DNA from: Eudoraea sp.
GTDB taxonomy: Bacteria > Bacteroidota > Bacteroidia > Flavobacteriales > Flavobacteriaceae
Reading direction: 5' to 3'
Assembly: GCA_024639765.1 (NCBI GenBank)
Contig: JAHEHU010000009.1
Location: 1-52,418 of the forward strand
Length of the DNA: 52,418 nt
Part shown: positions 1 through 14,300 of the stretch, piece after piece
Layout of the letters: every line of letters starts with the position of its first letter
Numbering within the stretch: position 1 is the stretch's first letter
Notes under the pieces: generated by a model
The model's input: only the letters and a program-made list of their open reading frames with translations
Database searches by the model: none
What the model was told of the DNA's origin: nothing
Translations under genes and position numbers: made by a program

Positions 1-755
1 GATTTGATAACTTTAAATCCTACCAGTCTGACGTTTTTTTCTATGTAGACGATCTGGAGTCGGATTACAAGAACATGGAACGGAACGAACTCATAAAACA
101 AATCTCGGGCTATTTAAATATCGTGCGAAGTGATGGAAGCTCTACCTACGATATCAACAATAGTGATATGATGACCGATTTTTTAATCGCTGAGGACCTC
201 GCCTACCCTGAAATGAATAGGGAGGACCTTAATATAGGTTGGGTAAGGAACCCCACTCCAAATTATTATAGTGAATCGAGATTGGATCAATTGCGAAAGG
301 ATCTTAAAACAGAGAAGTATCAGGCAATTATAAAAACGTACCGAAGTCAGAAAATTGTTTATAGAAGAGGCGCTCAAGCCAAGTTGAATTACGGGAATTC
401 TATCCTGGAGCTGATTAAAGCATACAACCCTGATGTGCGTGCTATTTATGCCAACGTAGGTATAATCGGGACCTCTCTGGATGGGTATGATGATGTGGGC
501 GGCAGGTCTACTCCTATGCGTCAAACAGATAACAGAAACAGCATCTGGGAAACTGAACTTTACCTAAAGAAAGGCACCGTAAAATTCAGGTGCAATGACA
601 GCTGGCTGCGCAACTGGGGCAGTGATTACGGAAACGAGAAGAATCTTTCCGGAGATGCCATTCCCGACGGAAACAATATTGAGCTGGAAGAAGGCACCTA
701 TCATATTACACTCGATCTGAGTAACTATACCTATGAATTTACGAAATTAGACTAG
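1..755 (+). CDS. SusE/SusF-like surface lipoprotein, C-terminal part (5' end outside window)
   Basis: The reading frame is open from base 3 to the TAG ending at 755, so the true start lies upstream of the window; the Met at 75 is internal. The last 100 or so residues (from about NVGIIGTSLDGYDD to the end) resemble the repeated starch-binding domains of SusE/SusF outer-membrane lipoproteins: a VGIIG strand, a KGTVKFRCNDSW strand followed by NWG, and the closing EGTYHITLDLSNYTYEF strands. The residues before it (IIKTYRSQKIVYRRG and flanks) are not recognised by eye. By family, such proteins sit on the cell surface and bind glycans beside a SusC/SusD pair, which would be expected upstream. Domain call is moderately sure; substrate unknown. 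Confidence 0.6.
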   Translation, partial: FDNFKSYQSDVFFYVDDLESDYKNMERNELIKQISGYLNIVRSDGSSTYDINNSDMMTDFLIAEDLAYPEMNREDLNIGWVRNPTPNYYSESRLDQLRKDLKTEKYQAIIKTYRSQKIVYRRGAQAKLNYGNSILELIKAYNPDVRAIYANVGIIGTSLDGYDDVGGRSTPMRQTDNRNSIWETELYLKKGTVKFRCNDSWLRNWGSDYGNEKNLSGDAIPDGNNIELEEGTYHITLDLSNYTYEFTKLD

Positions 756-774
756 GCCTTGGAAGCTGGAAATA

Positions 775-2454
775 CTATTGCTTCCCTGGATCGGCTACAA
801 TCTCACGTAACATCTCCCTCGCATGTCTCCCGGTTTCCCCATCCGGATCAAGGGAAATCGTTTTGGTATATAATTCTTTGGCTTTTGCTGTATTACCAGA
901 TTTCCAATAGGCCTCCGCCAAACTATCCCAGGTGTTGGCAGATTTAGGAAAGAGTTCCGTATTTAATTTAAATATAAAAAAGGCCTCCTCGTACTGCTCA
1001 CTATTTAACATGGCATCTCCTGCCCTGTTGAATTCAGCCTCGAAATCAAAGAATTGATAGCTGGGGTCCTTTAGCATACGTTCTGCTTCCGGTTGTATCT
1101 GGTCTGCCTTCCCACTGGTAAATAATTCAGTAAAATAGGTCATAGGATTGGCAATAAAATTAGTATCTGAATAGGCTAAAGCGGCATCTAATGCCGGATC
1201 CTCATTGTTTTTGTATTGCTCAAAAGTGAGTCCGGTGGCGATCTGAGGATACAGGGCTGGCCTGTTCTCCCATTGGGGCTTGTCTTGCCACCAGGCAAAA
1301 GACAAAAAGGCTCTCATTTGGGTATTGGGCAGGGTTAGGGGATTATTATCCCCATAGAAATTTATATTCTCGGCCGTGGGTTCCCCTATAAAAATGGCGT
1401 TGGTGTAGGTATGCAATTCATTTACTAGGTTCTGGCAGGCAGAAAAGGTCCGCCGCCCAATGATCACTATAAACTTCCCGGGTTGGTTAATTTTATTGTT
1501 TGCGATCACCCCTGTCACAATGGGCTTGTTCTTATAATTATTGCCCCCACCATTTAACCGCACATCCAGGATCAGTTTCTCCACATCATTTTTATCAATG
1601 AAATCGAATAACTCAGCGTAGAATTCCGGTATGGGCTGTATGGAATCGTCCATGATCTGACTGTGCCGCACATAAACCGTTTTCTGGTCTTTCAGATATT
1701 CATAATAATAGATCTTATCCAGATTTTTTAAATACAGAGGTGTGGTACTACTATTGCGCGACTCCAACCAATCTTCCCCGGGTACCACCATCCCATATTG
1801 CCTTGGGAAACGTTCAAAAGGTACGGCTTCGACTTTTTGTTCAAATTGTTTCCCGTCTTTTTCCAAGTTCAGTACTACGGACGTGGTCATTTCATTAAGT
1901 ATCCCCTGGGCGTGTAAAAATTCCGGAAAGGTTAAGTAATGAATGCCATAAGCTTTTACGAAGGATTCATTCTCTGCCGGAACAACTGGGCGCATCATTT
2001 TTAGTGCCTCCTCAATGGGCACACCACCAATGGCCAAAAGTTTTGCCCCGAGGGCTGCTTCATAATCTTTATGTACGCCTTGAAGAAAGACTCCGTCATC
2101 ATATTGGTATAAAACTATTGGCAATTCATGATACGGAATGATGCCTTCCCAGTACCCCAGTACTGTATGTCCATATTCAAAAGTAGCCACCAGCTTTGCA
2201 AAGCCCACCAGTACTTCATGGTCTGCCATGTTGGGGATGGCCTTATAAAATTTTTCTACCTGGGTATCGAAGGCCTCAGCAGTAGTCTTTTTAAAAAGAA
2301 ACGGGAAGTTTTTATGAACATTTTCCTGCAAAAACCTCAGGTCTTCCTGGTATTGGCTGGCAGTGAACTTTTGTTGAGCAGCAAGGTTTACAGCCATTAG
2401 AAAAAAGAATGTCACTATCAAAACTTTGCTGATGTTTGATCTATTTGTTATCAT
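775..2454 (-). CDS. S41-family (C-terminal processing) peptidase-like protein with C-terminal TPR
   Basis: 559 residues. An N-terminal hydrophobic segment (residues 10-26, ending NLAAQQ) looks like a Sec signal peptide, so the protein is exported. The S41 fold is indicated by GHTVLG (95-100), DVRLNGGGN (297-305) and RRTFSACQN (334-342) with Ser338 in the nucleophile position, then IGEPT (356-360). The general-base Lys normally found about 25 residues after the Ser is not visible. Residues 470-540 form tetratricopeptide-like helices (ANTWDSLAEAYWKSGN, AKELYTKTISLDPD). Peptide hydrolysis is plausible but not certain given the missing Lys. It lies alone on the minus strand, 67 nt downstream of the molybdopterin oxidoreductase gene and convergent with the lipoprotein gene. 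Confidence 0.8.
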   Translation of the reverse strand: MITNRSNISKVLIVTFFFLMAVNLAAQQKFTASQYQEDLRFLQENVHKNFPFLFKKTTAEAFDTQVEKFYKAIPNMADHEVLVGFAKLVATFEYGHTVLGYWEGIIPYHELPIVLYQYDDGVFLQGVHKDYEAALGAKLLAIGGVPIEEALKMMRPVVPAENESFVKAYGIHYLTFPEFLHAQGILNEMTTSVVLNLEKDGKQFEQKVEAVPFERFPRQYGMVVPGEDWLESRNSSTTPLYLKNLDKIYYYEYLKDQKTVYVRHSQIMDDSIQPIPEFYAELFDFIDKNDVEKLILDVRLNGGGNNYKNKPIVTGVIANNKINQPGKFIVIIGRRTFSACQNLVNELHTYTNAIFIGEPTAENINFYGDNNPLTLPNTQMRAFLSFAWWQDKPQWENRPALYPQIATGLTFEQYKNNEDPALDAALAYSDTNFIANPMTYFTELFTSGKADQIQPEAERMLKDPSYQFFDFEAEFNRAGDAMLNSEQYEEAFFIFKLNTELFPKSANTWDSLAEAYWKSGNTAKAKELYTKTISLDPDGETGRHAREMLREIVADPGKQ

Positions 2455-2521
2455 GAATGATGAGTTTATAGGGATCTAATGGTAATATGACATAAAACGA
2501 GCTTATTTGTTACAGCTGCTA

Positions 2522-4831
2522 CTAAACTATCTTCTCAATACGTACTTTCACAGACTTACTAATGGGAGTTCTGCTGTAATCAGCAAAATGATTGTAGGGT
2601 ACCAGCGGATTGGTCTCCGGGAAATAGGCGGCCAGATTCTGCCGTGGAATGTCATAGGGCACTATCTTAAATTGATGCGCCACCCTGTGCATACCGTCAT
2701 AATTGCTGCTTAGATCAACAATTTCCTCTTTCTGCAGCCCATGTTGCTTCATATCCTCAGGATTCATGAAAAGCACCCGTCGTTCATTGTAAATACCGCG
2801 GTACCGATCATCTAATCCATAAATAGTGGTATTAAACTGATCATGAGACCGTATGGTCATCAGCAAAAATTCATCTTCCTCAAGGACATGGTCTGGCAAG
2901 GGATTTACAGTGATCTTGGCTTTGCCGTTGGGAAGTTTGCTAAAGTCACCTTCACGGGCATTATTTGGCAGGTAATAGCCCACCCCTTTGGCCCGTAGCT
3001 CTGTATTTTTAAAACCTTTAGCCACCTGATCGATCATAAACCTGATCAATTCGTAGTTAGCCCCCATCTTCTTCCAATTTACCGGATGTTGTCCTTTAAA
3101 ATAGGCATGCGCGATACCGCCAATGATCTCTGGTTCACTCATTAGTTCGTTTGAGGCCGGTTTTAATACTCCCCTGGATTCACGTACCCTGCCCATACTG
3201 TTCTCGGTAGTAACTACACGTTCCTTACCGTCTTTAATATCTTTTTCCGATCTGCCCTTCGTAGGCAAGATGAGGGCCGTTTTGCCCGTAACCAGATGTG
3301 TTCTGTTTAGTTTGGTACTCACTTGTACAGTTAAATCACAATTCTGAATAGCTTCCGCCGTATAATCTGTATCGGAGGCAGCCATCAGAAAATTCCCTCC
3401 CAGACACATAAATACTTTTGCTTTGCCTTCATGCATCGCCTTTATAGCTCCCACCACATCTACTCCGGCCTTTTCCGGGGGAGTAAAACCAAGATGTTCT
3501 TTGATCCGTGCATTGAGTTCCTTGCTTACATAATGCATGATCCCCACGCTACGGTCGCCCTGCACATTGCTATGCCCACGCACGGGGCACGTACCACTGT
3601 TCGGTTTTCCGATAGCGCCTTTAAGTAATAGGAGATTTACGTACTCCTTTATAGTTGCTACAGAATTCTTGTGCTGCGTTAGCCCCATGGCCCAACAAAC
3701 TATGATCTTTTGAGCTTTGGCCAGATAGTGGACCACTTCATCAATAGCTGCCTCCCCTACTCCGGTCATGGATACTAGTTCCTGCGTATCGTAGTTCTCC
3801 AGATCTGCCATCAGCGAAGTATAGCCCTCGGTATGAGTATTGATAAATTCGTGATCAAAAACGTTGTTTTCAGATGTATCTAAGGCTGCCAATTTCTTCA
3901 AAATTACCTTCACCAGCGGAATGTCCTGATTGATCTTTACCGGAAGATGAACGTCTACCAGGTGCGTTCCACCGCCGAGCATCCCGGAAACGGACTGGGG
4001 ATTTTTAAAGGTCCTTAGTCCACTTTCCAACAATGGATTGATACTGACGATCTTCCCTCCGTTATTCTTACACTTTTCCAGGGCATTAAGCATTCTGGGA
4101 TGGTTGGTGCCGGGGTTTTGCCCTGCGATCAGGATCACCTCGGCCCCGTACAGATCTTCTAAGACAACAGACCCCTTCCCTATCCCTAAAGTTTCTGAGA
4201 GGGCCACTCCACTTGATTCATGGCACATATTAGAACAGTCTGGTAGATTATTGGTTCCCAGGGCGCGGGCAAACATGCCATATAAAAAAGCCGCCTCATT
4301 GCTAGACCTTCCTGAAGTATAAAAGATGGACTCATCCGGATGATCCAGGGCGAGTAATTGGGTTGCTATTAATTGATAGGCCTCTTCCCATGATATGGGC
4401 TCGTAATGAATACTCCCCTCCCGCAGCACCAGAGGCTCTGTGAGTCGGCCAAAAGAGTTGATCTGATAATCCGATAGCTGGGATAATTCCTCTACGGAAT
4501 ACTTCGCAAAAAAGTCACTGCCGATCTGTGATGTGGTTGCCTCATCTGCCAACGCTTTAGCCCCATTCTCACAATATTCCGCTATTTTGGAAGGTTGTTC
4601 CGGATCTGGCCATGCACAACTTGGACAATCAAAACCATCTTTTTGATTCATCTTTAAAAGACCTTTCATAGAGCGTGTTACACCCATTTCATTGAAGCTA
4701 TGCTTTAAAGCTTGAAACACTCCTTGTGTCCCCGCTGCAATCTGTATAGGCTCTTTGATCTTTAGATCAGAGAAGCTAATTGGACCACGGGTGGATACAT
4801 TTCGTTTCTTCATGTTCTGATCTTCTGGCAT
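2522..4831 (-). CDS. FdhF/YdeP-type molybdopterin oxidoreductase
   Basis: 769 residues, the usual length of the TIGR01701 oxidoreductase alpha-subunit family (E. coli YdeP relatives). It carries the molybdopterin-binding pattern FYTSGRSSNEAAFLYG (about 170-185) and DCSNMCHESSGVAL (198-211), where Cys203 aligns with the Mo-ligating selenocysteine of formate dehydrogenase H. A CPSC pair at 69-72 lies in the N-terminal region. The C-terminal part (MTIRSHDQFNTTIYG onward) is the molydopterin dinucleotide-binding domain. There is no signal peptide or Tat motif, so it is cytoplasmic. Physiological substrate is unknown; acid-resistance and formate roles have been suggested for relatives. No fdhD or electron-transfer subunit is adjacent. 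A second in-frame ATG (MKKRNVS) six codons downstream is an alternative start. Confidence 0.88.
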   Translation of the reverse strand: MPEDQNMKKRNVSTRGPISFSDLKIKEPIQIAAGTQGVFQALKHSFNEMGVTRSMKGLLKMNQKDGFDCPSCAWPDPEQPSKIAEYCENGAKALADEATTSQIGSDFFAKYSVEELSQLSDYQINSFGRLTEPLVLREGSIHYEPISWEEAYQLIATQLLALDHPDESIFYTSGRSSNEAAFLYGMFARALGTNNLPDCSNMCHESSGVALSETLGIGKGSVVLEDLYGAEVILIAGQNPGTNHPRMLNALEKCKNNGGKIVSINPLLESGLRTFKNPQSVSGMLGGGTHLVDVHLPVKINQDIPLVKVILKKLAALDTSENNVFDHEFINTHTEGYTSLMADLENYDTQELVSMTGVGEAAIDEVVHYLAKAQKIIVCWAMGLTQHKNSVATIKEYVNLLLLKGAIGKPNSGTCPVRGHSNVQGDRSVGIMHYVSKELNARIKEHLGFTPPEKAGVDVVGAIKAMHEGKAKVFMCLGGNFLMAASDTDYTAEAIQNCDLTVQVSTKLNRTHLVTGKTALILPTKGRSEKDIKDGKERVVTTENSMGRVRESRGVLKPASNELMSEPEIIGGIAHAYFKGQHPVNWKKMGANYELIRFMIDQVAKGFKNTELRAKGVGYYLPNNAREGDFSKLPNGKAKITVNPLPDHVLEEDEFLLMTIRSHDQFNTTIYGLDDRYRGIYNERRVLFMNPEDMKQHGLQKEEIVDLSSNYDGMHRVAHQFKIVPYDIPRQNLAAYFPETNPLVPYNHFADYSRTPISKSVKVRIEKIV

Positions 4832-5046
4832 CTGTATTTGTCTTTATACATTATATCTTGTGGTTTGCCGGTATTTTTATGTTGGGATACTTATCCTTTT
4901 GATATTCACGGTAATAATGGCTTTCCTATCTAAAGTTACGATAATTCAATTTTCAATAGGAAAATAGCGTTCTGAAATGGCTAAAAGTGTATACATAGTA
5001 AATATAAAGACATTTACTCTGCTAAAACTATTATCTTGCCCCTTGT

Positions 5047-5973
5047 ATGAAAACAAGCGTTTCTGCGTGGTTCATTATACTGTTGATCTTTCTAACCGGA
5101 AGCAGGCCAACCTTGTTTGCCCAGGACTTCATAGACCTTGCCTCTTTTTCATATACTACGGCCCTTAACAGAACTTTTGAAGATACAGCGGAAGACAATG
5201 CTATTCAGGAATGGAATCTGAATCTGGATTTTCCTATAGTGTTGTCGCCTAAAAAGGCCCTTATAACGGGTATAAACGCAGGAAGTATTCAGGTGGGTCT
5301 CTACCCTTCGCCTGAACCAATTACCAACTTATATACTGTTAGTTTGCGTTTGGGATGGAATACCACCTATTCGGAGAAATGGTCTGGTACCTATGTTTTT
5401 ATTCCAAAGGTAACCTCCGATTTTACAAGTGGTTTTTCCAGGGGTCAACAACTGGGTTTCATAGGGCTTTTAACGAACAGAAAGTCTGCCAGTTTAAAAT
5501 ATACATATGGCTTGTATACCAATACCGAGGAATTTGGAATGCTCTTAGTGCCTCTTATTGGTTTTTATCACCGAAGCAAGAATACCCAATGGGAATACAA
5601 TTTTTTACTGCCAGCAATGGCAGATCTGAATTATCGCATCAGTGAGTCTACTTCTGCCGGGTTCCGTTTTGACGGATTGGGAAGCTCTTTCAGTATTCAA
5701 AATACAGGTTTCCCAGATCATTATGTAACCAGGTCTTCCCTGGATTTTTTTCTGTACGGGGAGTTTAAGGTTACTTCAAATTTATTTCTAAGGACAAAAA
5801 TAGGGTACGCCTACGCAAGAAATTATAGGGTTTATAGTCAGGAAGACAAAATATCCCTTTCTCTTGTGGGTATATTCTTTGGTGATGATAGAAATAGTTT
5901 GAATGTGGATCCTGAGGATGGATTTCAAGCGAAGGCAAGACTGATCTATCGATTTGATCTTAGAAAAAGGTAA
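5047..5973 (+). CDS. Outer-membrane protein, DUF6268-like
   Basis: 308 residues with a clear signal peptide (MKTSVSAWFIILLIFLTG..., cleavage probably after LFAQ near residue 25). The mature part consists of alternating amphipathic strands with frequent Tyr/Phe and Gly turns (SLRLGWNTTYSEKWSGTYVF, LYTNTEEFGMLLVPLIG, KIGYAYARNYRVYSQ) and ends in an Arg/Lys-rich YRFDLRKR, consistent with an outer-membrane beta-barrel. The order of motifs resembles the Bacteroidota DUF6268 family, recognised from memory rather than by search. Function unknown. It is monocistronic by layout: the upstream gene is divergent, and a 45-residue gene follows after 32 nt. Confidence 0.75.
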   Translation: MKTSVSAWFIILLIFLTGSRPTLFAQDFIDLASFSYTTALNRTFEDTAEDNAIQEWNLNLDFPIVLSPKKALITGINAGSIQVGLYPSPEPITNLYTVSLRLGWNTTYSEKWSGTYVFIPKVTSDFTSGFSRGQQLGFIGLLTNRKSASLKYTYGLYTNTEEFGMLLVPLIGFYHRSKNTQWEYNFLLPAMADLNYRISESTSAGFRFDGLGSSFSIQNTGFPDHYVTRSSLDFFLYGEFKVTSNLFLRTKIGYAYARNYRVYSQEDKISLSLVGIFFGDDRNSLNVDPEDGFQAKARLIYRFDLRKR

Positions 5974-6005
5974 TTATAATTACTATTTTTACCTAAACTA
6001 CTCTA

Positions 6006-6143
6006 ATGAAGAATTTAATTCGGGCTATTATAGCAGGATATGGCGCCAAAAAAATTGGAGGTGGCCGTTGCGGTTGTATAGGCACCGTTTTCGTCTTTCT
6101 CATTCTGTATTGGCTCCTGGGATATGTCTTTAAGGTGATCTAG
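6006..6143 (+). CDS. 45-residue glycine-rich single-pass membrane protein
   Basis: An ATG-initiated frame of 45 codons ending in TAG, in a stretch otherwise left empty between two genes. The product begins MKNLIRAIIAGYGAKKIGGG, has a Cys-Gly-Cys (RCGCIG, 21-26), and then one hydrophobic helix (TVFVFLILYWLLGYVF, 27-42). The GYGAKKxGGG segment followed by a short hydrophobic tail is a pattern I associate with small conserved Bacteroidota membrane proteins. Position, start codon and coherent membrane topology support it as real. Function unknown. It may be cotranscribed with the MFS exporter that begins 31 nt downstream. Confidence 0.55.
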   Translation: MKNLIRAIIAGYGAKKIGGGRCGCIGTVFVFLILYWLLGYVFKVI

Positions 6144-6174
6144 GGTTTTATACATCAGAATCAGCTACTTTTAC

Positions 6175-7389
6175 ATGATGGATGTAAAAGGGCGTTCCCA
6201 ATTAGAATTTGTGGGCCTTATGGCCGCTTTAATGTCAATCGCCGCGCTGGCTCTTGATGCGTTACTGCCCGCCCTGGATATTATTGGATCTGCTGTGGGT
6301 ACCAACAGCCTCTCACAAAATCAACTGCTTATTACCATTTTTTTTCTCGGCCTTGGTGTTGGGCCGTTGCTTTTTGGACCTATCTCTGATAGTATTGGTA
6401 GAAAACCGGTGGTGTATATGGGTTTTGCTGTTTTCATAAGTGCCAGTATTCTATGTGTCTATGCCTCTAATTTTGAAATGATGATCACCGGACGAATACT
6501 TCAGGGTATTGCCCTTTCTGCTCCAAGAACCATAAGTGTGGCCATGATACGTGACCGGTATAGCGGAGATCAAATGGCCAGGATCTTATCCTTTGTGGTA
6601 GTAATATTCATTTTGGTGCCTATTGTTGCCCCTACTTTAGGTAAGTGGGTATTGGATGGTTTTGGATGGGAGGCCATTTTTCATGTGCAGGTAGTATTTT
6701 CTATCGTCGTAGCCTTCTGGTTTTGGAAGCGACAGCCGGAAACTCTAACCAATGAAAAACGCACCTCTTTCAGAATGAATGTTTTTGTGAATGGGTATCG
6801 AGAATTATTGAATTATAAGCAAACCATGGTCTTTACTTTTATTTGGGGATTTATTACCGGCTCATTTTTGGTGTATCTAAGTACTTCACAACAGATTTTT
6901 GAAGAACAATACCTTATGAAGGAGTCTTTCCCCTATATTTTTGCAACGCTGGCAATTACCATTGGCGCTGCAACACTATTGAATGGCACACTGGTACTTC
7001 GATTTGGAATGCTACGCCTGATAACCATAGCGCTCGGATTTTATATCATGGTTCCACTGATATATGTCATCCTATTTCAATCTGGAGTAAATCCGCCATA
7101 TTGGGTGGTCTTGTGTTTCTTTGCCCTCCAATTTTTTGCCGTGGGCTTTATTTTTGGAAATCTGCGGGCCTTAGCCATGCAGCCATTGGGTCATATTGCT
7201 GGTATTGGAGCTGCTTTAACCGGCTGCCTGGCCACCTTAATGGCTGTTCCTATAAGTGCTTTTATTGGAAGCTATGTGGTGGATTCTGTATTACCTGTAT
7301 TTATAGGGTTCCTGACCTGTGGAATTATTTCATATGGTATTCTGGCATACTTTTATCTCTCAAAAAAAGGACATTTTTTAAAGACGTAA
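6175..7389 (+). CDS. Bcr/CflA-family multidrug efflux MFS transporter
   Basis: 404 residues with about 12 predicted membrane helices and only short loops. The family signature for drug:H+ antiporters is present: the loop 2-3 motif PLLFGPISDSIGRKPVVYMG (about residues 64-83) and, in helix 4, GRILQGIALSAPRTISVAMIRD (about 109-130), typical of Bcr/CflA, where RxxQGxxxxA is followed by an arginine-aspartate pair. A central cytoplasmic loop holds KRQPETLTNEKR. It should act in the inner membrane, exporting a small hydrophobic compound using the proton gradient; the substrate cannot be told. The ATG at 6175 is followed two residues later by a hydrophilic MMDVKGRSQLE leader. TerC follows after about 77 nt on the same strand. 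Confidence 0.9.
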   Translation: MMDVKGRSQLEFVGLMAALMSIAALALDALLPALDIIGSAVGTNSLSQNQLLITIFFLGLGVGPLLFGPISDSIGRKPVVYMGFAVFISASILCVYASNFEMMITGRILQGIALSAPRTISVAMIRDRYSGDQMARILSFVVVIFILVPIVAPTLGKWVLDGFGWEAIFHVQVVFSIVVAFWFWKRQPETLTNEKRTSFRMNVFVNGYRELLNYKQTMVFTFIWGFITGSFLVYLSTSQQIFEEQYLMKESFPYIFATLAITIGAATLLNGTLVLRFGMLRLITIALGFYIMVPLIYVILFQSGVNPPYWVVLCFFALQFFAVGFIFGNLRALAMQPLGHIAGIGAALTGCLATLMAVPISAFIGSYVVDSVLPVFIGFLTCGIISYGILAYFYLSKKGHFLKT

Positions 7390-7466
7390 ATCCAAAGAAG
7401 ACCTTATCTTGTAAATCTGTTTTATATCAACGCATGCTTCTTGACTTTTGAATTAAATTGACGTTA

Positions 7467-8426
7467 ATGCTCATTTGGATTGCCTACATTCTTCTCATTA
7501 TTATTTTCCTGGCGTTAGATCTTGGCGTCTTAAATAAACGCGACCATGTTATCCGAAGTAAGGAAGCTAGTTTGTGGACGGCCTTGTGGGTAACGGTTGC
7601 CCTGAGTTTTAGTGGTGTTATCTATTGGCTATTCTGGAAAGGGTTGGTAGATAACCCAACTGAAATGACCCCTAACTCTGCCGTTTTAAACTATATCACG
7701 GGCTATCTCATAGAATTATCGCTGAGCATCGACAATGTATTTGTGATCGCGGTGATCTTTTCCGCATTCAGTATCCCACCAATTTATCAACACAGAGTTT
7801 TGTTTTGGGGTATTTTGGGTGCCATAGTTTTCCGAGCTATGATGATTCTTTTTGGCATCACTCTTATCAATCAATTTGACTGGATCATTTATGTTTTTGG
7901 GGTGTTTTTGTTGTATACCGCCTATAAGATGTTCAAATCGGAGAGCATCAAATTCAATCCAAAGAACGCACTGGCCTTTAAATACCTCAGGAAATTATAC
8001 CCTCTTACATCGCATATGAATGGCCATCATTTCTTCATAAGACGTATGGGTATTAAAGCGGCCACACCACTATTTGTGGCACTTATTGTTATTGAATTAA
8101 CCGATATTCTTTTTGCTTTGGATAGTATTCCTGCAATTCTGGCAATCACGGCAGATCCGTTTATTGTCTTTAGTTCAAATATCATGGCCATCCTTGGATT
8201 AAGATCGATGTATTTTCTGGTATCCAGAATGATGACCAAATTCAGGTTTATTAATTATAGTCTGGTAGTAATTTTAGGGTTTGTAGGACTAAAAATGTTA
8301 GCAGAAGAATATATACATATTCCTTCCTGGATCTCATTATTACTTATTCTGGCATCTCTTGCTTCGGGAATTATTTTTTCTTTATTGATCCCTGAGAAGA
8401 CGACAACGCCAGACACAGAAGGGTAA
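7467..8426 (+). CDS. TerC-family integral membrane protein
   Basis: 319 residues from the ATG at 7467. An upstream in-frame TTG at 7458 would add only three residues and is less likely as a start. About seven to nine membrane helices; the paired acidic family motifs are present: LSLSIDNVFVIAVIF in the first half and LTDILFALDSIPAILAIT in the second, both with membrane-embedded Asp residues expected to bind a divalent cation. By family (TerC/Alx) the protein is thought to export metal ions, Mn2+ in characterised cases, across the inner membrane. There is no tellurite-resistance cluster around it. It is probably transcribed independently of the MFS gene, although both point the same way. Confidence 0.88.
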   Translation: MLIWIAYILLIIIFLALDLGVLNKRDHVIRSKEASLWTALWVTVALSFSGVIYWLFWKGLVDNPTEMTPNSAVLNYITGYLIELSLSIDNVFVIAVIFSAFSIPPIYQHRVLFWGILGAIVFRAMMILFGITLINQFDWIIYVFGVFLLYTAYKMFKSESIKFNPKNALAFKYLRKLYPLTSHMNGHHFFIRRMGIKAATPLFVALIVIELTDILFALDSIPAILAITADPFIVFSSNIMAILGLRSMYFLVSRMMTKFRFINYSLVVILGFVGLKMLAEEYIHIPSWISLLLILASLASGIIFSLLIPEKTTTPDTEG

Positions 8427-8529: not shown

Positions 8530-8778
8530 TCAAGCCACTTTAGATTCAATGATACGTAATGCATCCTGCACGGTCTGCATACTGTCCATATCCTCATTTT
8601 CGAGTGTAATGTCAAAAGCATCTTCTACATCCAAAACAATGTCCACTAAATTGGCAGAATTGATATTCAAATCCTTAATAAAATTACTTTCAGGAGTAAT
8701 GGTATCTACGGTAACATCTTCAGGCAAATAGGGAGATATGATGGCTTTTAATTGCGTATAGCGTTCTTCTTTTGTCAT
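8530..8778 (-). CDS. Acyl carrier protein of the type III PKS operon
   Basis: 82 residues, the standard length for a free-standing ACP. The phosphopantetheine site is Ser41 in KDLNINSANLVDIVLDVED, replacing the usual DSL with NSAN but keeping the helix II pattern of acidic and hydrophobic residues. It would carry growing acyl chains as thioesters in the cytoplasm. It is the last gene of the minus-strand operon, three nt after the ketosynthase stop, which points to a dedicated carrier for this pathway rather than the housekeeping ACP (whose motif is normally DSLD). A phosphopantetheinyl transferase is not encoded in the window. Confidence 0.88.
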   Translation of the reverse strand: MTKEERYTQLKAIISPYLPEDVTVDTITPESNFIKDLNINSANLVDIVLDVEDAFDITLENEDMDSMQTVQDALRIIESKVA

Positions 8779-8781
8779 GGT

Positions 8782-10056
8782 TCAATTATAAAACTTTTTA
8801 AAAATAACACAAGCATTTACATCTCCAAAGCCAAAACTGGCTTTTGCTACAACATCAGGTGCCCTAGTTAAGGTCTGTTGAAGCACCCTGGAAGGATCAA
8901 TGATCCGGGAAATCTCAGGATGCAGGTCTTCACAATTGGCATTACCGTATATCTGACCATTTGAGATCTGCAGCACCGTACCAACACATTCTATACTTCC
9001 TGCGGCTGCCAAACAATGTCCCAGCAGGCCTTTAAAGGAATTGATATAAGGAAAATCTTTTCCATCCCTGCCCAATGCCCTGCTCCAGTTTTCAATTTCT
9101 ACCATATCTTTTGATGTGGCGGTTAAATGCCCGTTGATGGCGTCTATCTCTTCTGATGAAACCTTACTTTGTTTTAACGCCTCCTGAATACATCGCTGAA
9201 CAGCTTCGCTATTAGGCGCTGTCATGGTGCCACCAGAACGCTGCCCCCCACTATTTACGGATCCTCCCATCACTTCTGCATAAATCGGGGCTTTACGAGC
9301 CAATGCGCTTTCCAATGATTCCAGCACCATAGCTCCTGCTCCACTACCCGGCACAAAACCTGCTGCGGTAGCACTCATGGGTCTACTTGCCATTGTTGGT
9401 GAATCATTGTAATTTCTGGGTAAGATCCTCATGGCATCAAAACCTCCCCATACATAGGGTCCACTATCACTACAACTCCCTGTTATTATTCTAACGGCCT
9501 TGCCAGCAGCAATTCTGTCATACGCCATCAAAACTCCTTCCGTTCCGGTTGTGCAGGCAGAAGAGTTGGTGGTAACCTGGTTGCCACATCCTAAAATTCC
9601 GCCCAAATAGGCGCTAATTCCACTAGCCATGGTTTGTAATACAGATGTGCTTCCCAGGCGTTTAGTCTTCCCCTCGTCAATAAGATATATGGCCTCTCTT
9701 AGCTTATCAATACCTAAGATCCCTGTGCCAAAAATGACACCACTATCCCAATCGGTCTTTTCTTTATCTGTAGGTAGCAAGCCGGCATCATTCCAGGCAT
9801 CTACCCCGGCGATAACACCATAAACAAGTCCGGATGCGTTTAGTCCGCGCTGCTGCAGAGGCGTAAAGTATTTATTTAAGTGATCTTGTGTAATTAATGG
9901 TTTTCCTGCTATTTGACATCCAAAATTTAATTCTTTAAGTTGAGCGTGAAATTGTATTCCACTTACCTTTTTATCCAAAGCATTGGAAAAAGAAATGCTA
10001 TTTAAAGCATTAGGGGCACATACGCCCAATCCTGTTATAACTACTCGGTTAGGCAT
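8782..10056 (-). CDS. Beta-ketoacyl-ACP synthase (FabF-like)
   Basis: 424 residues. It has the condensing-enzyme catalytic triad: Cys168 in TTNSSACTTG, His310 in INGHLTAT and His347 in FKGLLGHCLAAAG (with Lys342). GFGDVNACVIF near the C terminus matches the usual GFGGxNA motif. It should catalyse decarboxylative Claisen condensation of acyl groups with malonyl-ACP. The start overlaps the dehydratase stop by eight nt and the stop is three nt before the ACP gene, so the three are translationally coupled. In context it is probably an elongating ketosynthase making the acyl starter for the type III PKS; a role downstream of the PKS is an alternative. The NGH-L-TAT variation from the usual HGTGT suggests a specialised, not housekeeping, FabF. 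Confidence 0.88.
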   Translation of the reverse strand: MPNRVVITGLGVCAPNALNSISFSNALDKKVSGIQFHAQLKELNFGCQIAGKPLITQDHLNKYFTPLQQRGLNASGLVYGVIAGVDAWNDAGLLPTDKEKTDWDSGVIFGTGILGIDKLREAIYLIDEGKTKRLGSTSVLQTMASGISAYLGGILGCGNQVTTNSSACTTGTEGVLMAYDRIAAGKAVRIITGSCSDSGPYVWGGFDAMRILPRNYNDSPTMASRPMSATAAGFVPGSGAGAMVLESLESALARKAPIYAEVMGGSVNSGGQRSGGTMTAPNSEAVQRCIQEALKQSKVSSEEIDAINGHLTATSKDMVEIENWSRALGRDGKDFPYINSFKGLLGHCLAAAGSIECVGTVLQISNGQIYGNANCEDLHPEISRIIDPSRVLQQTLTRAPDVVAKASFGFGDVNACVIFKKFYN

Positions 10057-10504
10057 TTTCTTTCACATTAAACATCCCGGAAATGGTCCCTTTACAAACA
10101 ACTTCATTCTGACTGTTATACATGGTTACCTTACATTTTAATTTAGAAAAACGAAAATAGCTTTTCTCAGAGATCACTCTAACCTTTTCATTAGGATACA
10201 CGGCTTTACGAAACTCCATTTGCATACTGCTCATGGCAATCTGAATATTACTGGTTTCAACGATCTTATCCCTGCCCAGCAAATAGATCCCCAGGCAAAC
10301 AAGGCCTATCTGGGCGCAACACTCAGTTAGGATAACCCCCGGGGTTACAGGGTGCTCTTTAAAATGACCTTTATAAAAAGGGAGACTTTCTTTAAAAACA
10401 AAGGAGCCTTCAACGCCCTCATCAGATACATTTGTTAATGTATCTACAAATAAAAAAGGATCACTGTAGGGTAGTTTCTTAAGGATATCATCAATATTTT
10501 TCAT
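10049..10504 (-). CDS. FabZ-like 3-hydroxyacyl-ACP dehydratase
   Basis: 151 residues with the hotdog-fold dehydratase signature GHFKEHPVTPGVILTECCAQ (46-65), providing His47 and Glu61 as the expected catalytic pair. It should remove water from 3-hydroxyacyl-ACP to give trans-2-enoyl-ACP. Its ATG overlaps the stop of the SDR gene in an ATGA arrangement, and its own end overlaps the ketosynthase start by eight nt. The group of SDR, dehydratase, ketosynthase and ACP resembles a compact type II fatty-acid-synthase module; a dedicated ketoreductase is missing and would have to be borrowed from primary metabolism. Confidence 0.88.
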   Translation of the reverse strand: MKNIDDILKKLPYSDPFLFVDTLTNVSDEGVEGSFVFKESLPFYKGHFKEHPVTPGVILTECCAQIGLVCLGIYLLGRDKIVETSNIQIAMSSMQMEFRKAVYPNEKVRVISEKSYFRFSKLKCKVTMYNSQNEVVCKGTISGMFNVKENA

Positions 10505-11292
10505 GTTAAACTCTCCCCTCCATCAGCCTTTATGATTGTACCTGTGATCCATTTTGCCTCATCCATACTTAACAGAAAAACGGTATTCGCAATGTCTTCT
10601 GGCAAAGTAATACGGCCTGAAGGATTTCTTTTTAACGCATTTTCCTTTATTAGATCGCTGTTGGGGATCATAGAAAAAGAACTGGTTTCTGTTACTCCGG
10701 CTTGTATACAATTGGCCTTTACTCCCTCAGATGCCAATTCAAGGGCAATGCTGCGTGTAAGCGCCTCAAGGGTTGCCTTTGCTGCAGCGACGGCTGCGTA
10801 CCCTGGTATTACTTTCTTATTCCCTTCACTGGTAAAGGAAATTACCCTCATGTCTTTATCATGTAACCCTTCATTCAGGATCTCCATAACCCATTCGTAT
10901 AAGCTCAGTGCCATAGATCTAATGGTGATCTCCATATCCTGCGCCGATAAACTACCTTCAGAATTGGCCAACATGGGTTTCAAACTGCCTTTGGCAATAC
11001 TGTGTATCAAAACCTTTATGGTATCTCCTTCTTCCATCAACCCTTTAAGCTTATTCAGCACTTCTTTCCTCCGCTCAGGATTTAAGGCATCCATATTTAC
11101 CGAATAGAAATCAATGGCATCTGCTTTTATTTTGCGAAAACTTTGCTCAATGGTCACCATATCTGCCCGCCTATCACGATGAACAATACAGATAGCATAT
11201 CCATGCTTTGCCATTTTTTGCGCCGTTGCCAGGCCCAATCCACGACTTCCTCCCAGGATAAGCACCCAATGTTTTTTACTTTTTACAGACAT
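10501..11292 (-). CDS. Short-chain dehydrogenase, enoyl-ACP reductase type
   Basis: 263 residues. The Rossmann nucleotide motif is GGSRGLG (14-20). The active-site pattern is Tyr165 and Lys172 in GYAAVAAAKATLEAL, a Y-x6-K spacing that is diagnostic of FabI/FabL-type enoyl-ACP reductases and not of the Y-x3-K ketoreductases. INNV-type residues are replaced by LIHSIAKGSL, again like FabI (HSIA). It is therefore expected to reduce trans-2-enoyl-ACP with NAD(P)H, though assignment rests on the motif alone. The ATG at 11292 follows a 58-nt gap after the type III PKS gene, the largest gap inside the operon. Confidence 0.82.
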   Translation of the reverse strand: MSVKSKKHWVLILGGSRGLGLATAQKMAKHGYAICIVHRDRRADMVTIEQSFRKIKADAIDFYSVNMDALNPERRKEVLNKLKGLMEEGDTIKVLIHSIAKGSLKPMLANSEGSLSAQDMEITIRSMALSLYEWVMEILNEGLHDKDMRVISFTSEGNKKVIPGYAAVAAAKATLEALTRSIALELASEGVKANCIQAGVTETSSFSMIPNSDLIKENALKRNPSGRITLPEDIANTVFLLSMDEAKWITGTIIKADGGESLT

Positions 11293-11350
11293 CCGTTTAA
11301 TTATTCTCTATATGTATAAAAATACTTTAAATTGATCTCTATTAGTTCTT

Positions 11351-12406
11351 TTACCATTCCAATAAGACTCTTTGAGCTGAAAACCCTGGCCCAAAACTCA
11401 GAATGAGCCCTTGCTCTCCCGAGGGAATCTCTTTATCCATAAACCGCTCCAATACATATAAAACGGTAGCACTGCTCATGTTGCCATAAAGCCTCAAGGT
11501 CTCTCTGGTGTCATCAATATTCTTCCCTAAATCTCCGAAAAGATCCTCAACGGTCTGCACTATCTTACGCCCCCCGGGATGGAAAATAAGATGATGAACC
11601 TTATCCATGGAACTCTGATGCTTTTGAAGAAAAGGATAGACAATATCGGGGAAATGCTCTGAAATGGTCTCAGGAACCTTGGGATCCAGGATCATTTTCA
11701 GGCCTGTATTTACAAGGTCAAAGCCCATCAAATGTGTAGCATCTTTAAAATGATACATTTCCTCCCCTACTATTACGGGTCCGGCAGCTTGCTCTTCAGA
11801 TGAAAGTAATACACAGGCTGCCCCGTCCCCAAAAATGGCTGCACTTACCATATTGGCCATGGAAAAATCATTTAGTTGAAAAGTAGCTGTTGGGCTCTCA
11901 ACGGCAATCACTGCTGCCCTTTTACCCGGATTAGAACGCAAAAAATTACTTGCATAGATCATTCCTGAAACACCAGCCGCACATCCCATCTCGGTTACGG
12001 GTAAACGAACAACATCTTGCCGTAAACCCAGATCATTAATGATATAGGCATCCAGCGACGGGATCATGATGCCTGTACAACTTACAGTAATTATATAGTC
12101 TAAACTTTCAGGGGTCCACTGATTCTTCTTAAGAGCTTTATTAAGTACTGCTGTCCCCAATTTTTTTATTTCACGTACATAGATCGCATTCTTTTGCTCA
12201 AAAGTAGTGGCGGTAAAAACCTCTTCGGGGTCCATTATGCCATATCTGCGATCTACACCTGCTCCTTCAAAGATCTTGATGACCTTTCGCCTAAATCGAT
12301 CACTCTGAGCTGATAACCAAACGTCTACAAGTGGTAGGATATCCTTGGTGTCTCTGTAGTACTCCGGGAGTTCTTTGGCAACGGAAACAACATGTACTTC
12401 ATTCAT
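11351..12406 (-). CDS. Type III polyketide synthase (chalcone/alkylresorcinol synthase family)
   Basis: 351 residues, typical for a bacterial type III PKS. The thiolase-fold triad is complete: Cys142 in VTEMGCAAGV, His276 in LIFHPGGRKIV and Asn309 in LYGNMSSATVL; the closing GFGPG-like loop reads LSFGPGFSAQ. Such enzymes extend an acyl-CoA or acyl-ACP starter with malonyl-CoA two to four times and cyclise the product to a resorcinol, pyrone, phloroglucinol or naphthol. The neighbours (methyltransferase and flavoprotein upstream, fatty-acid-synthase-like module downstream) favour a long-chain starter and a later methylated, hydroxylated phenolic lipid. This is inference by comparison with the Streptomyces srsABC arrangement; the actual product is unknown. 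Confidence 0.92.
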   Translation of the reverse strand: MNEVHVVSVAKELPEYYRDTKDILPLVDVWLSAQSDRFRRKVIKIFEGAGVDRRYGIMDPEEVFTATTFEQKNAIYVREIKKLGTAVLNKALKKNQWTPESLDYIITVSCTGIMIPSLDAYIINDLGLRQDVVRLPVTEMGCAAGVSGMIYASNFLRSNPGKRAAVIAVESPTATFQLNDFSMANMVSAAIFGDGAACVLLSSEEQAAGPVIVGEEMYHFKDATHLMGFDLVNTGLKMILDPKVPETISEHFPDIVYPFLQKHQSSMDKVHHLIFHPGGRKIVQTVEDLFGDLGKNIDDTRETLRLYGNMSSATVLYVLERFMDKEIPSGEQGLILSFGPGFSAQRVLLEW

Positions 12407-12412
12407 AACAAT

Positions 12413-13126
12413 CTATCTATTTGGGTGCGTTAGGATCCATTCATATCTAAAGGCCCACCTCCATCGAACTGTATAATCCATATCAGGGACTGCTTTGGAA
12501 AAAACATGAAAGTCATTTTCTGAAAAACCACTTTTAATAGAGACCAATCCGTCATGTTTGGCAATGACAGTCTTCATAAACATACGGCTGAATATCCTAA
12601 AAAGGGCAAAACTAATTTTATTTCGGTCCAGATCATTTACAACGACCCCAATTTTTGTCAATAAGACGAATTTTTTTACAAAAGCATCTATCTGTTCCCG
12701 GGAAAAATGATGTAAGGTCAGTGTACACAGTAGTATGTCACAATTATATTCTTCCGGATCTAAAGAAAGAACATCCTGCGAAATAAACCTGATATTGTCA
12801 TAATAATGACTAGATTCTTTGGCGATGTTGATCGATTTCTCATTTAGATCTAAACCTATTAGTACTGTTCTGATACCTTTGGCCTTGCAGTGATCTGCTA
12901 CTGTCCTCAACATACTTCCGTCACCACACCCCATATCAATTATGGTATAACTTTCCCTGGGGTATTTTTCAAAAATAGTATCCAGGGCTTTTAAAGTGAT
13001 CTTAGCTCCCCCCAGCCATTTATTAGCTAGTGTAATATCCTTTAGAACAGACCTGATCTGGTCTTCACTTAAACTCAGATCATCCATTAATTCATTATCG
13101 GTACTTCGCTGCTTAAAACGGATCAT
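12413..13126 (-). CDS. Class I SAM-dependent methyltransferase
   Basis: 237 residues with the SAM-binding motif I IIDMGCGDGSML (62-73), an acidic motif II residue in LIGLDLNEKSI and post-motif LLCTLTLHHFS. It probably methylates the aromatic product of the adjacent type III PKS, on oxygen or carbon; which cannot be told. Its ATG overlaps the flavoprotein gene's TGA (ATGA) and its stop is six nt before the PKS start, so the three are tightly coupled. The C-terminal half (RIFSRMFMKTVIAKHDG and following) resembles the lipid-substrate-type methyltransferases often seen next to bacterial type III PKS genes. Confidence 0.85.
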   Translation of the reverse strand: MIRFKQRSTDNELMDDLSLSEDQIRSVLKDITLANKWLGGAKITLKALDTIFEKYPRESYTIIDMGCGDGSMLRTVADHCKAKGIRTVLIGLDLNEKSINIAKESSHYYDNIRFISQDVLSLDPEEYNCDILLCTLTLHHFSREQIDAFVKKFVLLTKIGVVVNDLDRNKISFALFRIFSRMFMKTVIAKHDGLVSIKSGFSENDFHVFSKAVPDMDYTVRWRWAFRYEWILTHPNR

Positions 13127-14259
13127 ACTTTTATTGGTTTTCCATGCGTTTTCCGAATGATACGCCTAAGCATTCCCTTGGATAGCGTGGCCATGGAGAA
13201 AAGCATATTGCCGGTTTTAGGAGACATTAGGAGCTTTTGAAGACGCCTTCCTGTTCTTATCCTCTTCCCAAAAAAATACTGCCATAATAGAGCATACTCT
13301 TTTTCTATCGTATTGCGCTCCATTTGTCCTTCTTTTAAATATACATGTATGAGTTCTGAAGCTATTTTAGCGCTATGGATGGCCATGGCCATTCCGTTAC
13401 CACATAAGGGGTGAATAAGTCCGGCAGAATCCCCACACATTATGATATGGTCCTCAACAGGATCTTTCTCCTCGAAGGAAATTTGAGCAATGCTCAGGGG
13501 TTTTTTGAATTCCATGGTGGCTTTACTTAAAAAGTTCGCCAAATACGGATTCTGTGCAACCACCAACTCATTGAATTCATCAATATTTTGTCTTTTTTGA
13601 AAGCTTTCATAGGTCACCAAATAACAAAAATTAACTGCTCCGGTCTCCGTTTTGGACAATCCTCCATACCCCCCTTTAAAACTGTGAAGACCTACAAGAT
13701 GATCCGGAAATTCGTCCCATTTATAATGTGCCTTCACCCCAAGCCAGGGAGATTTTTTAGCAAAAAAGTTCCGAGATAGTGTCTTATCCAGATTAGATCG
13801 TTTTCCAAATGCGCCAATGGTAAAGGGCGCCTTAAATTCTTGACCGTGATTATTTCTTATTGTAAATGTGTCTTCTCTAAACTCAATGCTCTCTGCTGTA
13901 CAGAAAACAAACTCCACACCAAGGGCAATGGCCCTTTTATACAGGCAATTATCAAGCGCATAACGACTAATTCCTTTCGCTCCCAATGGTAAGGAGAGCT
14001 GAAGTGAACGTCCTTTTTGTGTACTGAATTCCAGGGTGTTGATCTCTATGGTAGTTGGTAATTCTATGCCCAGAAATTGAAGGTAAGGTACCACTTCATT
14101 AGATAGGTATTCACCACATACCTTGTGATGAGGATACCTTTCTTTTTCAAGTACCAGTATGCGATGGTGTTCTTTGCGTAAATGAATGGCTGCCGTTAAT
14201 CCGGCCAGTCCTCCCCCAATAATGATAACATCATATACAGTCACTAGGGAAAGATACAT
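13123..14259 (-). CDS. FAD-dependent oxidoreductase / hydroxylase (geranylgeranyl-reductase-like)
   Basis: 378 residues from the ATG at 14259. A longer frame from a TTG at 14271 would run into the preceding terminator hairpin, so it is rejected; a GTG at 14244 (giving MTVYDVIIIGGG) is a credible alternative. N-terminal FAD dinucleotide motif DVIIIGGGLAGLTAA, then ERYPHHKVCGEYLS, and the second FAD motif IIMCGDSAGLIHPLCGNGM, typical of the group containing geranylgeranyl reductases and aromatic-ring monooxygenases. In the operon it is the first gene, overlapping the methyltransferase by four nt. A likely job is hydroxylation of the phenolic product toward a quinone, as SrsC does for SrsA products; reduction of a double bond is the main alternative. 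Confidence 0.85.
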   Translation of the reverse strand: MYLSLVTVYDVIIIGGGLAGLTAAIHLRKEHHRILVLEKERYPHHKVCGEYLSNEVVPYLQFLGIELPTTIEINTLEFSTQKGRSLQLSLPLGAKGISRYALDNCLYKRAIALGVEFVFCTAESIEFREDTFTIRNNHGQEFKAPFTIGAFGKRSNLDKTLSRNFFAKKSPWLGVKAHYKWDEFPDHLVGLHSFKGGYGGLSKTETGAVNFCYLVTYESFQKRQNIDEFNELVVAQNPYLANFLSKATMEFKKPLSIAQISFEEKDPVEDHIIMCGDSAGLIHPLCGNGMAMAIHSAKIASELIHVYLKEGQMERNTIEKEYALLWQYFFGKRIRTGRRLQKLLMSPKTGNMLFSMATLSKGMLRRIIRKTHGKPIKV

Positions 14260-14272
14260 ATTTCCACACAAA

Positions 14273-14300
14273 AAAAACCCGACATAATTGTCGGGTTTTT
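14273..14300 (-). terminator. Strong intrinsic terminator after the OmpA-like gene
   Basis: Perfect 12-bp inverted repeat AAAAACCCGACA / TGTCGGGTTTTT around a TAAT loop. Read on the minus strand it lies 20 nt past the OmpA-like stop codon and ends in a run of seven T. It finishes only about 13 nt before the ATG of the flavoprotein gene that opens the PKS operon. Confidence 0.88.

Follow-up and report, generated by a model that had tools for sequence, protein, structure and literature searches.

Why should an operon built around a type III polyketide synthase (PKS) carry fatty acid synthase (FAS)-like genes of its own? The question is raised by seven densely packed genes, all on the minus strand in the open reading frame (ORF) listing, at positions 8530 to 14259 of a 52,418-nucleotide stretch of Eudoraea sp. 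DNA (Flavobacteriaceae; assembly GCA_024639765.1, contig JAHEHU010000009.1), referred to here as the window. They encode a flavin adenine dinucleotide (FAD)-dependent oxidoreductase, a methyltransferase (MT), the type III PKS, an enoyl reductase (ER), a dehydratase (DH), a ketosynthase (KS), and an acyl carrier protein (ACP). The operon is probably a type II mini-FAS that gives an acyl-ACP starter to the PKS, with the MT and the FAD enzyme completing a methylated phenolic lipid or alkylquinone.

Coupling of the module to the PKS

How tightly are the module and the PKS bound together? Among 397 Flavobacteriaceae genomes, the window's own included, a PKS match (E <= 1e-40) was found in 143, and 142 of these matches are orthologous (at least 57% identity); the one in genome G072 (33%) is a different PKS. 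The KS (E <= 1e-90) was found in 140 of the 397 genomes, all within the 143 that bear the PKS, and none of the 397 had a KS without a PKS. Three PKS-bearing genomes lack the KS, namely, G072, G138, and G293, and in the latter two the contig ends within the cluster. Homologous PKS genes without the module had been named in the original prediction as evidence that would speak against it; the search gave no clear example, since 140 of the 142 orthologues have a KS and the other two loci are contig-cut. Module and PKS are thus strictly coupled in evolution, and their co-occurrence (142 versus 140 genomes) gives strong comparative support to the predicted custom acyl starter, which would be made on a dedicated carrier.

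The order of the genes is equally stable. Fifty-one loci from GTDB genomes were compared, 45 of them longer than 13 kb, and in all 45 the FAD, MT, PKS, DH, and KS genes keep one order on one strand. Conservation of this order over many genera excludes chance. Three upstream genes on the same strand, which by eye encode an E1-type dehydrogenase, a lipocalin-like protein, and an OmpA-like protein, are shared by 42 to 44 of the 45 long loci and point to vertical descent. A broader set of 72 full-context loci combines the 45 GTDB loci close to the query with 27 picked for divergence, odd spacing, or extra-family kinship; it is therefore non-random, and it excludes loci with too little flank as well as L116, whose PKS is not orthologous. 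The FAD enzyme, MT, PKS, KS, and ACP are each encoded at 72 of these 72 loci, the DH at 71, and the ER at 58.

What happens when the cluster is divided? Four genomes show this: G144 and G329, which belong to one genus, G190, and G276. In each of them the FAD-MT-PKS-ER genes lie apart from the DH-KS-ACP genes, and both halves are present. G190 has the halves on the same contig, separated by 356 kb; in the other genomes they are on different contigs, with a gap of at least about 11 kb in G276. Retention of the halves despite their separation favours a common function over an accidental neighbourhood. Two irregular loci may be mentioned here. In the contig-cut locus of G138 (L155, about 500 to 6900), an island of VgrG/PAAR/LysM-type secretion-like genes, judged by eye, lies between the ER gene and an incomplete DH gene at the edge of the contig. 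The PKS match of L117 (G150, about 6112 to 7160) is in two pieces, indicating a pseudogene or a sequencing error.

The window's own genome (G000) holds a partial second cassette on a contig of 3001 bases (C58; locus L134), comprising an ACP (72%), a KS (70%), a DH (62%), an ER (52%), and the end of a PKS. It was considered as a paralogue and rejected; most simply, this contig comes from another flavobacterium as a contaminant, the contamination reported for the assembly being 4.21%. Its proteins were kept as rows in the residue alignments described below, from which two window copies (L001 and L113) were removed.

Does the cassette occur outside the family? A phylum sample of 395 genomes was searched for the PKS (E <= 1e-25) and the KS (E <= 1e-65). 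The PKS was matched in 172, and among the matches listed identity is at most 36% outside 30 family genomes and three others, G472, G524, and G631. Of these three, G631 has all seven genes, G472 and G524 have all but the ER gene, and each has a phosphopantetheinyl transferase (PPTase) gene; such full or near-full cassettes suggest that the cassette probably passed from family to family in one piece. At 18 distant-PKS loci (28 to 36% identity; 17 from other families plus G072), a profile search of about 6 kb per side found no KS, DH, ER, or ACP, while FAD and MT genes adjoin the distant PKS in five (L149 and L151 to L154). A search of a plasmid collection, made with the PKS only, matched 220 records, all below 60% identity and, among the matches listed, at 21 to 37%.

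The enzymes and the proposed route

The overlaps and gaps first described between the seven genes are borne out by the ORF coordinates (Table 1). The FAD and MT genes overlap by 4 nt, and gaps of 6 nt and 58 nt follow between MT and PKS and between PKS and ER; in the downstream half, ER and DH overlap by 4 nt, DH and KS overlap by 8 nt, and KS and ACP are 3 nt apart. A terminator-like hairpin sets the operon apart from the OmpA-like gene upstream. A sigma-70 promoter scan was uninformative (13 found versus 15.6 expected).

Table 1. Coordinates of the operon genes in the window and of related features
Feature	Position	Strand	Basis
FAD-dependent oxidoreductase, proposed ring hydroxylase	13123..14259	minus	PF01494; TIGR02032 under cut-off; fold; kept in 72/72 loci
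S-adenosylmethionine (SAM) methyltransferase (Methyltransf_25)	12413..13126	minus	Pfam/NCBIfam; kept in 72/72 loci
Type III PKS, Cys142-His276-Asn309	11351..12406	minus	PF00195/PF02797; structures; triad alignment
FabL-like short-chain dehydrogenase/reductase (SDR) enoyl-ACP reductase (ER), Tyr165-x6-Lys172	10501..11292	minus	NCBIfam FabL best, under curated cut-off; PDB 3oic
FabZ-like 3-hydroxyacyl-ACP dehydratase (DH), His47/Glu61	10049..10504	minus	PF07977; FabZ models under curated cut-off
Ketosynthase (KS), FabF/FabB superfamily, Cys168-His310-His347	8782..10056	minus	Pfam/NCBIfam; KS tree
Dedicated ACP, INSAN replacing usual DSL motif	8530..8778	minus	PF00550; 81-row alignment
Terminator-like hairpin, 12 pairs plus T tail	14273..14300	minus	between upstream OmpA-like gene and operon
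GNAT/GT2-flanked modules (other genomes)	L200 7600-12746 (with ER); L201 5825-10186; L202 6609-10856		

Are the encoded enzymes intact? The catalytic residues attributed to them hold up in alignments of relatives, being invariant with at most one row excepted: Cys142/His276/Asn309 of the PKS in 128 aligned rows, Cys168/His310/His347 of the KS in 80, His47/Glu61 of the DH in 122, and Tyr165/Lys172 of the ER in 100. The ER thus keeps the Y-x6-K motif for which it had been called a FabI-type reductase, but it looks FabL-like rather than FabI-like; FabL is the best NCBIfam model, below its curated cut-off (146.8 bits versus 328), and the FabL structure 3oic is the best solved match. The KS shares 33% identity with the FabF of the same genome, and the two fall into separate clades of the KS tree. 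In the genus of G118 and G313 the KS is more divergent (53 to 54%).

The ACP scores 28 bits against PF00550 (cut-off, 20.8). Its unusual NSAN carrier motif was followed through an alignment of 81 distinct sequences: Asn40 and Ser41 are present in 81 of 81, Ala42 is present in 76, and Asn43 is present in 62, with His at that position in 18. Three carrier domains were found in the window's genome, namely, this one, the C58 copy, and an ACP adjacent to FabF that reads DSLDTVEL. At 20 loci a PPTase gene lies directly behind the ACP gene on the same strand, and all three of the PPTase genes tested in Pfam match ACPS above the cut-off.

The PKS matches PF00195 and PF02797 above their Pfam cut-offs, and its nearest relatives (91% identity) come from Eudoraea and Muriicola metagenome-assembled genomes. 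The best structural matches of its model (mean predicted local distance difference test [pLDDT] score, 80.9) are Pks11 and CylI, with a template modeling (TM) score of about 0.84; CylI is about 25% identical to it in the structural alignment. From the structure titles and the part of the literature consulted (PMC8086630), Pks11 is a methyl-branched alkylpyrone synthase and CylI is a resorcinol synthase using acyl chains. Might the PKS instead use acetyl- or malonyl-CoA to build a small ring, to which a further enzyme later attaches the mini-FAS side chain? Some type III PKSs of bacteria do take short starters, and a tetrahydroxynaphthalene synthase (1u0m) is also among the solved structures nearest to the PKS. 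The two best matches, an alkylpyrone synthase and an acyl-using enzyme, speak against it, as does the absence of any conserved acyltransferase, ligase, or prenyltransferase gene among the neighbours, judged by eye, in the 45 long loci. We consider such a late attachment very improbable.

How, then, would the mini-FAS and the PKS cooperate? The ACP would be phosphopantetheinylated, presumably on Ser41, by a PPTase encoded behind it or elsewhere. The private KS would lengthen the acyl chain on the ACP, with a housekeeping ketoreductase presumably reducing the 3-keto group, after which the FabZ-like enzyme would dehydrate and the FabL-like enzyme would saturate the chain. Lineages without the ER may use a housekeeping enoyl reductase or may leave their chains unsaturated, and since the ER is optional across loci, chain saturation probably differs between lineages. 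Acyl-ACP, not acyl-CoA, would then load Cys142 of the PKS, which would add malonyl units and close an aromatic ring or pyrone. Finally, the MT would methylate the ring and the flavoprotein would hydroxylate it, so that a methylated phenolic lipid or an alkylquinone results. On evolutionary grounds, the case for a module dedicated to acyl-ACP starters is strong. That the ACP hands its acyl chain to the PKS we infer with good precedents among PKSs reported to take acyl-ACP starters, namely, ArsB/ArsC and germicidin synthase (PMC6274091) and CylI (PMC8086630). The ring formed, the length of the chain, and the final product are likewise conditional, a methylated phenolic lipid or quinone being suggested by the presence of MT and FAD genes next to the PKS gene.

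Around the operon, a few neighbours deserve mention. In 21 of the 45 long loci (e.g., L037, L040, L041, L047, and L056) the ACP gene is directly followed by the gene of a conserved, membrane-like protein of about 140 amino acids; the two examples tested had no Pfam match, and the protein is possibly an eighth member of the cassette. Downstream of the operon and on the opposite strand, the window encodes a TerC-like membrane protein (7458 to 8426), with a relative on the downstream side in 28 of the 45 long loci, and a major facilitator superfamily (MFS)-type transporter (6175 to 7389), both named by eye.

Weighing the proposal

Several observations weigh against the acyl-ACP scheme or parts of it. 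(i) The reductive enzymes are not a fixed set. The ER is lacking at 14 of the 72 full-context loci, strains without it including, for example, Arenibacter (L055 or L083), and 13 genomes without it at the locus have no close copy elsewhere (nine gave nothing at E <= 1e-20, and four gave one match at 26 to 31%), in a search that recovered the gene from a gene-bearing positive control, G120. The DH is lacking at one locus only (L173 of G118), while ER, KS, and ACP stay. It follows that not every reductive step is essential. Moreover, as had been remarked at the outset, the seven-gene operon has no ketoreductase gene. (ii) A PPTase gene lies behind the ACP at just 18 of the 72 loci, 1 of the 45 close relatives and 17 of the 27 in the divergent set; the window has none, and one was found elsewhere in its genome. 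(iii) In the phylum sample the KS occurs in 38 of 395 genomes, 33 with an orthologous PKS and five without (G490, G769, G439, G469, and G515). (iv) The ring type is not readable from the active site. A conserved Phe229 occupies what we take to be the Gly256 site of chalcone synthase, and in the solved PKSs compared the residue is Trp, Tyr, Leu, and Trp, although their products differ. (v) The PKS tree places the cassette PKSs in a long-stemmed clade of their own, apart from the MT-FAD-linked Bacteroidota PKSs compared (L149 and L151 to L154), which weakens any transfer of product from those trios; the deep joins of this tree are unsure because of the long branches. (vi) In the part of the Planctomycetota work on a comparable trio that was consulted (PMC10896814), the role of the FAD enzyme stayed open. 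(vii) The best family score of the window's flavoprotein is to geranylgeranyl reductase TIGR02032, below the cut-off, and not to a hydroxylase.

An attempt to narrow the ring type failed. A call based on the reported ArsB Trp281/ArsC Gly284 switch (PMC6274091) was dropped, as the presumed equivalent residues of Pks11, tetrahydroxynaphthalene synthase, CylI, and Steely1 are not sorted by product, and an Azospirillum protein intended as an alignment bridge for ArsC turned out to be FabH-like.

What does the flavoprotein do? It matches PF01494 (FAD_binding_3), and in Foldseek its AlphaFold model (pLDDT, 86.6) is closest to a flavin monooxygenase and to halogenases that use flavin; 3oz2, which resembles geranylgeranyl reductase, ranks 32nd. 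A fold nearest to these enzymes favours ring hydroxylation, which, judged from the model, fits better than the geranylgeranyl reductase name. A halogenase ranks high by fold, but the conserved stretch GGYGGLS is unlike the halogenase motif WxWxIP, and this candidate was rejected. The protein may start at a GTG at 14244, since aligned relatives start near that residue. An alternative that touches the last steps only is that the product is an alkylpyrone and that the flavoprotein works on the alkyl chain in the manner of a geranylgeranyl reductase. The closest solved PKS, Pks11, does make alkylpyrones, and the below-cut-off family score just given agrees with it; the fold ranking does not, and an MT and an oxidoreductase beside a type III PKS are a known alkylresorcinol/quinone arrangement in the accounts consulted (PMC10896814, PMC9927152). 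An alkylpyrone is unlikely, though it deserves to be kept in mind.

What of the five genomes with the module but no cassette PKS? In G490 and G769, ER-DH-KS-ACP-PPTase genes stand back to back with a DarB gene (634.8 and 614.7 bits versus a cut-off of 550). DarG also adjoins the module in G490, the one genome tested for it (197.8 versus a cut-off of 170), and the 300-residue protein that precedes DarB matches no family, its position alone marking it as DarA. The PPTase of the dar-linked module falls just below the Pfam cut-off (24.9 versus 25). Compared with the window, this module has a KS at 49 to 50% and an ACP at 32 to 35% with the same NSAN motif; by adjoining darB and darG, the module accompanies a second resorcinol-forming route. 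In G469, G515, and G439, DH-KS-ACP genes (with ER in G469) have a GNAT-like protein on one side and a family 2 glycosyltransferase on the other, assigned by Pfam in G469 only; they may belong to a different pathway, one for an acylated (glyco)lipid, that relies on this type of module. The ACPs here read NSM or DSF, unlike NSAN. The KSs of the PKS, dar, and GNAT contexts form one clade (support, 99/98), apart from the FabF of the window's genome and another of its KSs, which were the sole outgroups. In all five genomes a distant type III PKS occurs at another site, to which the module may be linked; by subtraction, such a PKS is present in 139 of the 362 sampled cassette-free genomes, and five are too few to judge.

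These contexts bear on a further explanation, in which KS, DH, ER, and ACP belong to an independent lipid pathway, making for example a membrane fatty acid of an uncommon kind, and happen to lie in the operon, while the PKS uses ordinary acyl-CoA from central metabolism. Relatives of the module without the cassette PKS, beside darB/darG or GNAT-like/GT2 genes in other families, speak for it, and many type III PKSs are reported to use acyl-CoA (PMC6274091). Within the sampled family, however, the KS never occurs without the PKS (140 of 140), even where the halves are separated, and we hold independence to be quite unlikely. Given the different genes beside which it occurs, ER-DH-KS-ACP looks like a portable acyl-supply unit. 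One can go further and picture a portable Bacteroidota mini-FAS, often accompanied by a PPTase of its own, that feeds the type III PKS, DarA/DarB, and the GNAT/glycosyltransferase pair, with the NSA motif insulating it and the PKS dependent on acyl-ACP, yielding undescribed, widespread methylated phenolic lipids or quinones; this fuller picture is tentative, with the chances a little below even.

Known systems and significance

The adjacency of MT, oxidoreductase, and type III PKS genes is shared with hidABC of cyanobacteria, with Planctomycetota clusters, with pkqABC of Mycobacterium and Streptomyces, and with the operon of Streptomyces griseus whose letters we take to be srsABC. Operons of this kind elsewhere are reported to make alkylresorcinols or alkylquinones (PMC10896814, PMC8086630, PMC9927152). 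They are described as three genes, whereas the window cassette adds four, a private type II FAS module. The original comparison with srsABC stands for the gene arrangement, all three genes being present at 72 of 72 loci. As to kinship, the PKS forms a clade separate from the trio-linked PKSs of Bacteroidota, the ones that the tree covers.

How does the cassette differ from other acyl-ACP-fed systems? The ars genes of Azotobacter vinelandii use a large type I FAS, ArsA and presumably ArsD, where the window has free-standing type II enzymes and an ACP, plus MT and FAD genes. The likeness is one of logic, in that a dedicated FAS is described as feeding a type III PKS with the acyl chain carried on an ACP (PMC6274091). 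In the cylindrocyclophane pathway, as reported, a chain bound to an ACP (CylB) is likewise received by a type III PKS, CylI, which forms a resorcinol (PMC8086630); the chain is lengthened by type I PKSs, unlike that of the window's type II module. The DarA/DarB/DarG dialkylresorcinol-flexirubin pathway shares homologous ER-DH-KS-ACP genes with the window cassette, but its ring is reported to be built by DarA/DarB (PMC3992019), and no such type III PKS, MT, or FAD gene was seen beside the dar-linked module.

Type III PKS clusters are a familiar class in this family, and the set of about seven genes described here is kept by many marine flavobacteria. In the accounts consulted, such clusters make up 9% of those of Flavobacteriaceae where 66 bacteria were studied (PMC7440613) and 10.74% of all clusters where 2,680 genomes were (PMC10734526), they are also counted or listed in Flavobacteriaceae elsewhere (PMC7477175), and one from Leeuwenhoekiella matched no known product (PMC9859067). 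In the portions of the literature on Bacteroidota and Flavobacteria type III PKS clusters available to us, we found no account of a KS/DH/ER/ACP module with the PKS, which does not establish its absence from print. Because 142 of the 143 PKS-bearing family genomes have the orthologous PKS, the cassette probably bears on this published class, to which it offers a testable scheme: which genes are members, what carries the starter, and where a new lipid should be sought. Should the module prove portable, it would be a natural parts set for acyl-ACP-fed phenolic lipids and would link two resorcinol routes in one phylum. What might the lipid be for? In Actinobacteria, the alkylquinones of trio operons reportedly serve as alternative carriers of electrons (PMC9927152). 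For the Flavobacteriaceae, presence in about one-third of the sampled genomes suggests that the cassette has a basic role, perhaps in making a membrane or redox lipid.

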